64,000 bases of DNA. It comes from Sphingobacteriales bacterium. Lineage in GTDB: Bacteria; Bacteroidota; Bacteroidia; Chitinophagales; CAIOSU01. Positions 3,535-61,785 of this stretch are shown one piece after another; within the stretch, counting starts at the first letter, position 1, and each line of letters opens with the position of its first letter. The DNA is taken from positions 1 to 64,000 of the forward strand of contig JAIXOI010000049.1 of the NCBI GenBank assembly GCA_027486795.1. Direction: 5' to 3'. Below the pieces are notes generated by a model that did no database searches, was not told the origin of the DNA, and worked only from the letters and a program-made list of their open reading frames with translations. A program made the position numbers and the translations under genes.

Positions 3535-3575
3535 CATCAAGTATCAAGTATCAAGTAGTGAGTATCAAGTACAAA
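3535..3575 (+). repeat. Heptad array, GTATCAA type, left arm
   Basis: Degenerate tandem 7-mers start 10 bases after the DUF4468-like stop: CATCAA (partial), GTATCAA, GTATCAA, GTAGTGA, GTATCAA, GTACAAA. The period is strict while the unit drifts. It is the inverted partner of the array at 3622-3691. Confidence 0.85.
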
Positions 3576-3621
3576 ATCTTTGGTTTTGTACTTTTACTAT
3601 TTGCCTAATTTTGAAGTTGTC

Positions 3622-3691
3622 TTAATACTTGCTACTTGATACTTAATACGTGATACTCAGTACTTGATACTTGATACTCAGTACTTGATAC
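3622..3691 (-). repeat. Heptad array, GTATCAA type, right arm (10 units)
   Basis: Ten consecutive 7-mers on the plus strand are variants of TTGATAC, the reverse complement of GTATCAA (TTAATAC, TTGCTAC, TTGATAC, GTGATAC, TCAGTAC and so on). With 3535-3575 it could fold into a long imperfect hairpin. The rest of the 355-base gap (3692-3879) shows nothing recognisable. Confidence 0.85.
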
Positions 3692-3879
3692 TATTTAATT
3701 AACCCAACCTTAAACCTTTCTTCTCATAGCCGTTACATATCATGTTTAGTTTTGTGAGCAATGATGGCAAATGTCCTTTTTGCTAACAATGCCCTAAATG
3801 GCTTTTATAGCCATACCCCAATTGCCACCCCCTTTACTTTTTCGGTTTCTTTTTTCTTCCTCCTCCAATCCCTTTACGT

Positions 3880-6185: not shown

Positions 6186-6192
6186 ATAAGTC

Positions 6193-6220
6193 TTGATACT
6201 TACTACTTGCTACTTGCTAC
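6193..6220 (-). repeat. Heptad array, GTATCAA type (right of terminator)
   Basis: Four units on the plus strand: TTGATAC, TTACTAC, TTGCTAC, TTGCTAC. It ends 3 bases before the stop codon of the minus-strand gene at 6224, mirroring the array after phoH. Confidence 0.8.
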
Positions 6221-6223
6221 TAA

Positions 6224-26651: not shown

Positions 26652-26671
26652 GTGTTGTTTACTTTTGCCAT

Positions 26672-26699
26672 GGACTATGGACCGTCGACTATGGACCAT
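26672..26699 (+). repeat. Heptad array, GGACTAT type
   Basis: Four units in register: GGACTAT, GGACCGT, CGACTAT, GGACCAT. It lies immediately behind the inverted-repeat element and shares its unit type with 61725-61773. Confidence 0.75.
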
Positions 26700-26785
26700 C
26701 GAACAAAAAAACTTCTTGATATTTATCAAGCCGACGCCTTCCATTTAGCTCCAACTTTGCTATATCACTAAACGATATACAAGTC

Positions 26786-29150: not shown

Positions 29151-29170
29151 GGGGGTAAAATTAGCGATTA

Positions 29171-29201
29171 GACACAAGTATCAAGACACAAGACACAAGA
29201 C
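29171..29201 (+). repeat. Heptad array, GACACAA type
   Basis: Units GACACAA, GTATCAA, GACACAA, GACACAA, GAC. It mixes two unit types in one array. Two TTGATAC-type units on the other strand follow at 29225-29238, close behind the methyltransferase stop (29244, minus). Confidence 0.75.
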
Positions 29202-38280: not shown

Positions 38281-38410
38281 TTGCTTTATCGCTGCGCTTT
38301 TATCTGCAAAAGAACCTTTTGACTTTAAAATGGCTAGTTCACATAACTCGCTCCCCTCTTCCGCATGGCCTTTCGCGCTTGGCAAGAGGAGGGGGTAGGG
38401 GGTGGTTAAC
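38281..38410. repeat. Probable dispersed intergenic repeat
   Basis: This part of the 515-base gap 38047-38561 contains CTCCCCTCTTCC and GGCAAGAGGAGGGG as inverted arms around a short spacer (about 38350-38393), followed by a G-rich GGTAGGGGGTGGTT. The composition differs from nearby noncoding DNA and resembles dispersed elements of other Bacteroidota. An 80-codon minus-strand frame (38224-38466) crosses it, but probably only reflects the repeat. The rest of the gap is AT-rich and featureless. Confidence 0.45.
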
Positions 38411-38522
38411 ACGCGATACGTAAAATTTATAAGCGTCTTGAGACGCCCAATCCAGTTCATCTTCATTGAAAAGCGAGGTAGACTAGGATTTATAAATTAC
38501 CATTTTCAACACCCTTAACCCA

Positions 38523-38550
38523 TCGTACCTTGTACATCGTACTTTGTACA
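38523..38550 (+). repeat. Heptad array, TCGTAAA type
   Basis: Units TCGTACC, TTGTACA, TCGTACT, TTGTACA in register, 12 bases upstream of the ATG at 38562. Confidence 0.7.
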
Positions 38551-38561
38551 TACTCCACCCC

Positions 38562-39614
38562 ATGCGACCCACAAAGCTAACCCACAGCCTACTTCAGGCT
38601 TTCCAATCGGTGCTCACCGATGAGCTGGCTGCCATTGCCTTTACCGAAGAAGAACTCGTTTGGCAGGCCAACCAACAATTGCCCAGCCATGAACGCATTA
38701 GCTACCGAACCTATCAGCGCTACAAGGCCGATATACTTTGTGTTGAGACACAAGACATAAGAAATGTCATCCTGAGTCTCGCCCAAGGCGAGAAAGGACA
38801 CAAGACACAAGACTTGCTCCAAGATGTTGATGGAGAGAACCAACATTTAGACACAGAAAACACCGAACTGGTGCGGCAAATGCACGTAACGCTTACCAGC
38901 GCTCTAATGAAGCAAAAGCTAGCGTTAGTGCGGGGTATTTACGAAGCAAAACCCAATTGGCGGCGCTATACTTGGATGCTGGAACGCAAGTTTCCCGATT
39001 TCAGGCTAAAACTACCGCCTGCGCTTGCCGCCACTTTGGTAAACGATAAAAAGGCGGATAGCTCGAAAGGCGAGGCTAAAAAAGAAAGGAAAGCACCTGA
39101 AACAGAAGCGGAAAAACAGCAGCGATACAAAGACTGGGCTGCGAAACAAGCCGCAGAAAAGGCACTCATTAAACCCCCTACGGTAGAGGAGAAATGGAAG
39201 AGTACGTATAATCAGCCCTGGAAACCCATGTTCTTTGGCGGTCAGGCCTATTTTAAGCTTAACGATATAAAGGAGATGGAGGAAGAAATGGAACGCGATG
39301 TGGCAGCAGGCTACGTAAACCCTTATGCCCACTTGGAGTATAGGCGCGAGCCGCTGCCGGATGGGGAAACGGGTTTTTACAAGACATTTGGCATGGGCGA
39401 AGAAAAGCTGCCCTTGCTGGTGTATATGCTCCGCGATGCCGATTCGCCAAAAATTGAAGAGCGGCAAGAACTATGGGAGAAGCAAGAGCACAGGCGCAAA
39501 AACATCATTCGCGCCGAGCAGGGCCTACCGCCCTTAGACCCACCAGAGTCGCTCGGTGACCATAATCACACCCGCCGCTGGTCGGGTAGTATTTTGGGCC
39601 ATTCGGGTGGGTAG
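38562..39614 (+). CDS. Unrecognised DNA-binding-like protein with a repeat inside its frame
   Basis: A 350-residue protein. The ATG at 38562 is preferred; an in-frame TTG at 38544 lies inside the upstream heptad array. The first 60 residues are helical and look like the N-terminus of phage terminase small-subunit-like proteins (RISYRTYQRYKADILC), and WRRYTWMLERKFPDFRL near 130-145 fits the same idea. The middle is Lys/Glu-rich. The C-terminal third (WKPMFFGGQAYFKLNDIKEM onward) is unrecognised. About residues 62-84 are encoded by GACACAA-type heptads and a REP-like hairpin at 38747-38813, a segment likely inserted without breaking the frame. No other phage genes are near. Confidence 0.65.
   Translation: MRPTKLTHSLLQAFQSVLTDELAAIAFTEEELVWQANQQLPSHERISYRTYQRYKADILCVETQDIRNVILSLAQGEKGHKTQDLLQDVDGENQHLDTENTELVRQMHVTLTSALMKQKLALVRGIYEAKPNWRRYTWMLERKFPDFRLKLPPALAATLVNDKKADSSKGEAKKERKAPETEAEKQQRYKDWAAKQAAEKALIKPPTVEEKWKSTYNQPWKPMFFGGQAYFKLNDIKEMEEEMERDVAAGYVNPYAHLEYRREPLPDGETGFYKTFGMGEEKLPLLVYMLRDADSPKIEERQELWEKQEHRRKNIIRAEQGLPPLDPPESLGDHNHTRRWSGSILGHSGG
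38747..38813 (+). repeat. Composite heptad array plus REP-like hairpin inside a gene
   Basis: GACACAA, GACATAA (38747-38760), then GTCATCCTGAG and the hairpin TCTCGCC-CAA-GGCGAGA, then GACACAA, GACACAA, GAC (38797-38813). The same unit occurs at 29171-29201 and the same hairpin arms at 44903-44919. The reading frame stays open through it. Confidence 0.8.
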
Positions 39615-39617
39615 TTG

Positions 39618-39680
39618 GTTGCGGGTTGTGAGTTACGAGTTACGAGTTGCGAGTTTCGGGTTGCGAGTTGCGGGTTGGTG
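39618..39680 (+). repeat. Heptad array, GTTGCGA type
   Basis: Eight full units in register plus a trailing partial: GTTGCGG, GTTGTGA, GTTACGA, GTTACGA, GTTGCGA, GTTTCGG, GTTGCGA, GTTGCGG. It starts 4 bases after the stop codon of the upstream gene. Confidence 0.9.
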
Positions 39681-39705
39681 AGCCGTAATATGTAAGCACA
39701 AGACA

Positions 39706-39849
39706 TTTGTCACCCCGATTTTGGGAGGGGCCTTCCAGCGTCAAAGCCAAAACCGCCAAGCACCGCCACCCACCCAACGGTGAAAGCTTCGGTAATTGGA
39801 CATTGGCACTTCGTCGCAAGAAGATCCCTCCCAAAATCGGGATGACAAA
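39706..39849. repeat. Inverted-repeat (REP/MITE-like) element, copy 2
   Basis: The left end 39706-39735 (TTTGTCACCCCGATTTTGGG...) and right end 39818-39849 (...CCAAAATCGGGATGACAAA) are near-perfect inverted repeats, giving a 144-base element with a noncoding interior. It occupies most of the 401-base gap 39615-40015. Confidence 0.8.
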
Positions 39850-44890: not shown

Positions 44891-44935
44891 TTTGTCACCC
44901 CGTCTCGCCTGAGGCGAGATCACGAGGGGCCTTCC
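44891..44935 (+). repeat. REP-like element, one end only
   Basis: TTTGTCACCCCG, hairpin TCTCGCC-TGA-GGCGAGA (44903-44919), then GAGGGGCCTTCCAGCG. It shares its ends with the element at 39706 and its hairpin arms with 38747-38813. The remainder of the 624-base gap to 45431 is noncoding with TTAAC-rich motifs at about 45330-45372. Confidence 0.65.
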
Positions 44936-61617: not shown

Positions 61618-61724
61618 AGATTTAATGGAAGGTAGCGTATTAGCTATACCGTTTGTAGAGCTACGAGCAATGTTACCTACACAAGCAAGCTAACGACGTT
61701 TATTTAGAAACAATTTTTGTTCAT

Positions 61725-61773
61725 GGACTATAGACTATGGACTGTCGACCATCGACTATGGACTGTGGACTGT
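61725..61773 (+). repeat. Heptad array, GGACTAT type (7 units)
   Basis: GGACTAT, AGACTAT, GGACTGT, CGACCAT, CGACTAT, GGACTGT, GGACTGT in perfect register, 12 bases before the stop of the minus-strand gene at 61786. Confidence 0.9.
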
Positions 61774-61785
61774 GGGACTAATCTA

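Follow-up and report, generated by a model that had tools for sequence, protein, structure and literature searches.

We describe a nested composite repeat of a bacterial genus, in which a hairpin cassette is set inside an array of heptanucleotides and in register with it, and one copy of which lies within an open reading frame of the window (the whole 64,000-nucleotide stretch of Sphingobacteriales DNA analysed here). Comparison of the sequences of its copies suggests a reading to which we give an even chance: recombination would exchange hairpin cassettes among heptad arrays that act as shared platforms, and some cassettes would end up as protein linkers or tails.

The composite in the window gene

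The window composite, read directly from the sequence, spans positions 38745 to at least 38813 on the forward strand. Left-hand GACACAA-type heptads (GAGACACAAGACATAAGA, 38745-38762) are followed at 38766-38799 by a REP-like core (GTCATCCTGAG-TCTCGCC-CAA-GGCGAGA-AAGGAC) with an outer TCCT/AGGA stem, assigned from sequence and fold; its apical hairpin, TCTCGCC-CAA-GGCGAGA, occupies 38777-38793 according to match counts and fold. The right-hand heptads (GACACAAGACACAAGAC, 38797-38813, also from sequence and fold) contribute their first bases to the 3' arm of the stem. Immediately downstream (38814-38823, same strand) is TTGCTCCAAG, a variant of the motif TTGCTTCAA, which trails some GACACAA arrays; motifs of this type were found at 5 of 33 GACACAA array ends against a background of 0.8%. 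The sequence-only reading had placed a hairpin enclosed by GACACAA heptads inside an open frame, and both sequence and coordinates confirmed this. The roughly 22 residues that it expected the element to add came to 23 (38745-38813, residues 62-84, ETQDIRNVILSLAQGEKGHKTQD), in a frame that is open from the ATG at 38562.

Chance matches are few on this scale. The heptad 17-mer occurs three times in the window with up to two mismatches (0.01 expected) and the hairpin twice with up to one (0.00 expected); the bare 11-mer GTCATCCTGAG alone is not significant, with one occurrence in the window and 0.36 expected. Folded as DNA, the 67-nt composite reached -11 kcal/mol (z -5.75), which none of 200 shuffles equalled, and the 34-nt core, with its TCCT/AGGA and TCTCGCC/GGCGAGA stems, is an imperfect palindrome of the 20-40 bp that characterize REPs. 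Coding sites can be tolerated because the GACACAA array is free of stops in all six frames and the composite in four of them, and stop-free 7-base repeats can thereby provide raw material for protein linkers and tails.

The host gene (38562-39614, forward strand) encodes 350 residues, is under purifying selection overall and shows a weak resemblance to terminase small subunits (PHROG 4102, matched weakly by all five members of A1, best E 0.00081, and by the window protein at E 0.0093). The window protein found no match in Pfam at E up to 1 and nothing better than E 0.061 in the PDB. A phage and a plasmid origin of the gene were both considered and rejected, as the protein was without a match in 50,697 phage records and in 72,556 plasmid records. 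Seven genomes of the family were searched: all five that represent the genus (G000 to G004) matched the host gene, with long matches in G000, G002 and G004 and weaker, partial ones in G001 and G003, and the other two gave no match. A scan of named genome contigs placed the gene at three loci in two MAGs. In G003 the neighbouring radical-SAM gene and pheT are present, with the host gene missing between them. Upstream of pheT we also observed CTTGATA-type heptads in G000 and G004 and a complete GACACAA-hairpin composite in G003 (L044).

Compared with its syntenic orthologue in G004, the window gene has a dN/dS of 0.25 over its whole length and of 0.62 over residues 151-350, the latter on 10 changes; for the paralogues L021 and L022 the value is 0.21. 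The predicted structure of the window protein is of low confidence (mean pLDDT 51.5), with residues 65-97 below 50 and between helices. In the window gene the composite makes up the linker that joins a helical region at the N-terminus (residues 1-60) to another at about residues 94-150.

Recurrence in the genus and coupling of hairpins to heptads

Among the matches listed, composites of the same build were present in all five genus genomes, and the expectation that the window copy would have counterparts elsewhere was borne out by their recurrence through the genus, in genes and between genes. We scored a heptad as adjoining a hairpin core at 11 or more of 14 on at least one side, counting homologous copies in different genomes separately, for all 18 CCT/AGG and all 18 ACT/AGT cores found genus-wide and for 19 of the 20 GGGT/GGGC cores of G000 (C59 omitted). 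GACRCAA adjoined 12 of the 18 CCT/AGG cores (five on both sides) and AACYCGY none, the remaining six having no heptad. At the ACT/AGT cores AACYCGY adjoined 16 of 18 (10 on both sides) and GACRCAA five, with GACRCAA alone at L185 and L186. Any heptad was found at one of the 19 GGGT/GGGC cores, and at none when the threshold was 12 of 14. Random 35-mer flanks scored 2-3%, far below the association of heptads with hairpins seen here. Hairpin type follows heptad type, and the coupling is not absolute.

Copy number is modest, with 31 cores in G000 (control 0); the pattern allowed either of two letters at each of two stem bases, and in all 31 cores these bases pair (23 as C-G and eight as A-T). Most of the 36 genus cores (27) are clear of ORFs of at least 100 codons. 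Six lie over such an ORF on the same strand (L119, L175, L126, L125, L189 and L174) and three over one on the opposite strand only. The opposite-strand ORFs over four cores (L102, L119, L167 and L177) were assumed to be mechanical, and L174, in another frame of a 479-codon ORF of G002 and near its mechanical start, was read as lying in an upstream extension beyond the true start and left out of the gene families described below.

The heptad 17-mer, at up to one mismatch, has 167 overlapping matches in G000 (control 0). From the first 100 of these 167 placements, leaving out those on C53, we delimited at least 35 GACACAA arrays, spread over 31 stretches of the G000 genome. Four of the 35 fall within an ORF that extends at least 60 codons to each side. 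One is the window gene, of 356 codons if counted from its first start; the other three ORFs (201, 184 and 157 codons) are taken as mechanical, and the one of 184 codons lies opposite the Crp-like gene. Long GACACAA arrays stand at contig ends on C10, C12, C17 and C53 of G000; the assembly is therefore probably broken at these points, and the array counts may be underestimates. A second palindrome lay within the same heptads in 8 of 11 entries, a proportion that is biased, as some sites were entered on both strands and the loci came mostly from heptad searches; the other three entries represent two paralogue sites with single heptads.

A composite pattern so strict that neither the window copy nor the chorismate mutase copies fit it occurred in 3 of 298 genomes of the order, all three among the five of the genus, and in none of the 293 outside it. 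An exact 24-mer array was missing from all 58 order genomes outside the genus in which it was sought.

Two further sites in the window had been likened to the composite. The array at 29170-29201 (forward strand; period 7, by sequence and match counts) shares the same 17-mer, so that the match claimed for the unit at 29171-29201 extends to the heptads, but the hairpin is absent there. At 44903-44919 (forward strand, also by sequence and match counts) the apical arms TCTCGCC/GGCGAGA do recur, but the element that hosts them (GTCACCCCG...CGAGGGGCCTTCCAGCG or GTCACCCCG...CGAGGGGCC) is intergenic and of another family, with a further copy at L002.

Coding copies and the mosaic tract

Five gene families read the hairpin core in a single frame (NVI.S). 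Besides the window gene they comprise a Crp-like regulator, a DAHP synthase/chorismate mutase, MurC and a NUDIX-glyoxalase protein. In-frame presence in unrelated protein genes, the mark of Rickettsia palindromic elements, is thus found in five families; as four of the six composite frames are open, the agreement in frame is suggestive, not decisive. Crp-like tails were considered from all five genus genomes, the MurC composite from G000 and the NUDIX-glyoxalase composite from G002.

In the tail of the Crp-like regulator, which has a cNMP-binding domain, G000 and G003 carry the composite, G001 and G002 heptads only and G004 neither; L143 and L144 are Crp-like sites with heptads and without the hairpin. 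Identity of this gene to that of G000 is 94.5% in G004, 90.1% in G003, 81.0% in G001 and 76.0% in G002, and in the surroundings of pheT G003 and G004 are almost equally near G000; G000, G003 and G004 are therefore close to one another, and G001 and G002 fall outside their group. Judged from these sequences, a short account of the Crp-like gene may be that the heptads came first and the hairpin later, with a loss in G004. Deletion of the hairpin from complete composites could likewise leave copies with heptads only.

The tail of the DAHP synthase/chorismate mutase bears the composite in G003 and in G001, and in G000 it is shortened by a stop inside the hairpin. Its apical part is CGGAGCCG in G001 and TCTCG...CGAGA in G003 and G000. 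G001, which gene identity places as an outgroup, has a complete composite here, so the hairpin is not the younger part in every case. The copies on C501 of G003 and C28 of G000, which represent the C-terminus of this protein, match the window composite at 87-90% over 70 nt.

In MurC of G000, a composite of the AACYCGY type lies at about residues 270-290, where 19-20 residues are unmatched in all four listed alignments to solved MurCs (45 were matched). It is at this sister composite, and not in the window gene, that a gap of the predicted kind is seen. The composite of the G002 protein, which has 299 residues, falls at about residues 152-170, between a NUDIX domain (19-142) and a glyoxalase domain (177-291).

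At the window gene itself the predicted clean gap of about 22 residues was not found. The syntenic orthologue in G004 (L017) is 90% identical, is without the composite and encodes a protein 16 residues shorter; its entire linker is unrelated sequence and the window composite sits inside a paralogue-like tract, which is why a clean gap is missing. At 34 of 41 informative sites this mosaic tract (38735-38900, forward strand; gene positions 174-339) sides with a paralogue on C38 of G000 and not with the syntenic orthologue, compared with 7 of 327 sites elsewhere in the gene; none of 10000 permutations was as extreme. The sequence-only reading had named, as the finding that would speak against it, orthologues in which these residues are present and vary by normal substitution; the hairpin residues occurred in none of the four aligned homologues.

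GACACAA heptads begin at residue 62 or 60 in the paralogues L021 and L022 and in the G002 copy (L018); at the hairpin site L018 has heptads alone, and L021 and L022 carry a different palindrome at the same residue. No donor paralogue with an identical hairpin was found, and because L022 carries the other palindrome, an exchange of the hairpin during or after conversion is an assumption. Either the window copy or the paralogue may have been the donor of the tract. By eye, a second linker in L021 and L022 (about residues 150-190) contains AGTCCAC-type heptads and a CCTCGCC-CGA-GGCGAGG hairpin in frame, and in L021 also AATAACC-type heptads in frame.

Exchange between arrays, its alternatives and known repeats

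In the reading that we put at an even chance, heptad arrays would supply common homology between loci. Gene conversion or template switching would then exchange cassettes among arrays of like type, the cassette being either this REP-like core, with an apical part that changes, or CCTGCCTGCCGGCAGGCAGG. Such exchange would fit the shared junctions, the coupling of types, the relatives with heptads only, the second palindromes, the apical swap and the paralogue-like tract. Coding sites are not in one state throughout the related genomes: some are bare, and others have heptads alone, heptads together with a hairpin, or another apical part; as the site states differ in this way and hairpin type follows array type, an exchange route between homologous arrays is testable. 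More tentatively, and with somewhat less confidence than an even chance, we propose that the arrays might be recombination platforms genome-wide, on which type-matched cassettes would be swapped and linkers, inserts and tails rebuilt from intergenic repeats, even in MurC, which takes part in making the cell wall, and between the domains of the NUDIX-glyoxalase protein. If this were true, the composite may have helped to fuse the NUDIX and glyoxalase domains.

The main rival, which we consider possible but unlikely, has the composite moving as a single unit, with a Y1/RAYT transposase recognising the hairpin and acting in trans. Recurrent composites do have common junctions, Y1_Tnp matches are present in all five genomes (six in G000), G004 is without the composite at two coding sites, and the MurC composite coincides with a gap of 19-20 residues against solved MurCs. 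However, the GTCATNCTGAG core was found at none of the six G000 Y1_Tnp loci (about 1 kb of flank), three of which are flanked on both sides by different palindromes of their own; relatives have heptads without a hairpin at two sites, and the window gene offers no clean empty site. A RAYT as the mover of the window hairpin was accordingly set aside as unsupported, the core being missing near all six loci. The Y1_Tnp genes at L157, L158 and L160 have palindromes of other families on either side, like classical REP-transposase units. To the sequence-only reading the composite looked mobile, which suggested that heptads and hairpins can travel together: recurrence, association and absence from the syntenic orthologue agree with this, but transposition as one unit is not demonstrated, because two coding sites in relatives have heptads and lack the hairpin.

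A local origin appears improbable. Under it, slippage during replication would extend short seeds into heptad arrays at each place, hairpins would appear or be inserted independently, and the likeness between places would mostly reflect shared bias. The G000 arrays do range in length from 17 to 129 bases, but the non-heptad junctions AAAT|GTCATCC and AAG|GACACAA are common to unrelated loci, and these together with the type coupling call for common descent or exchange; the confinement of the exact 24-mer array, missing from all 58 genomes noted above, also argues against it. We think it very unlikely that the composite is a regulatory or RNA element with an incidental reading frame: as RNA it has a stable fold (-18.9 kcal/mol, z -5.26) and its stem bases co-vary, but Rfam gave no match at E up to 1 over 38300-39800, five gene families have one frame in common and G004 is without the composite at two sites. 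That an ordinary protein sequence resembles repeats by accident is scarcely credible, for all its open frame and whole-gene purifying selection, given the near-zero chance expectation for heptads and hairpin in the window and the DNA match to copies at another gene.

Bacterial interspersed mosaic elements also combine a palindrome with other motifs. They alternate REPs, whereas the composite described here is one hairpin within tandem heptads. Passages of PMC3733652 on intragenic REPs and Rickettsia palindromic elements describe palindromes that are mostly intergenic and are also found inside ORFs whose frame they preserve, contributing about 20-30 residues; they occur at ORF ends too, much as the composite does. 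In contrast to both, the present hairpin is enclosed by heptanucleotide arrays, and the type of array corresponds to the stem of the hairpin; the GTAG or CGTC tag of REP superfamilies is on neither strand of 38747-38813. REPs are also treated in a portion of PMC12306157. Short imperfect hairpins dispersed in one genome and the presence of Y1 transposases recall the REP/RAYT systems outlined in parts of PMC2817692, where RAYT genes are described as always flanked by two REPs; here, in contrast, the core adjoins none of the six G000 Y1_Tnp ORFs. Heptanucleotide direct repeats such as TAACTGA are reported in sections of PMC4679880 from Beggiatoaceae, Cyanobacteria and some Bacteroidetes, and they are similarly tandem 7-nt units, mostly intergenic; compared with the repeats in those sections, the units here are GACACAA and AACYCGY, have embedded hairpins and also occur in coding sequence. 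Among the titles and abstract openings listed for literature on palindromic elements in genes, Rickettsia, heptamer and heptanucleotide repeats, REP sequences and RAYT/Bacteroidetes, none dealt with such a composite, and the 10 papers listed of 47 that matched the string GTCATCCTGAG look unrelated by title. Intragenic palindromes and heptanucleotide repeats are already known; what is new is the nested, type-matched composite, whose strict pattern was seen only in the genus.

Further arrays in the window, with a period of 7 or 14 and other units, lie at 3536-3571, 3621-3692, 6192-6221, 26668-26702, 39618-39677 and 61723-61780, all outside ORFs of at least 100 codons. On C2 of G004 (L031/L036, about 244139-244189), the TCTCGCC hairpin and a CTGCCTGCCGGCA palindrome both lie inside GACACAA heptads.
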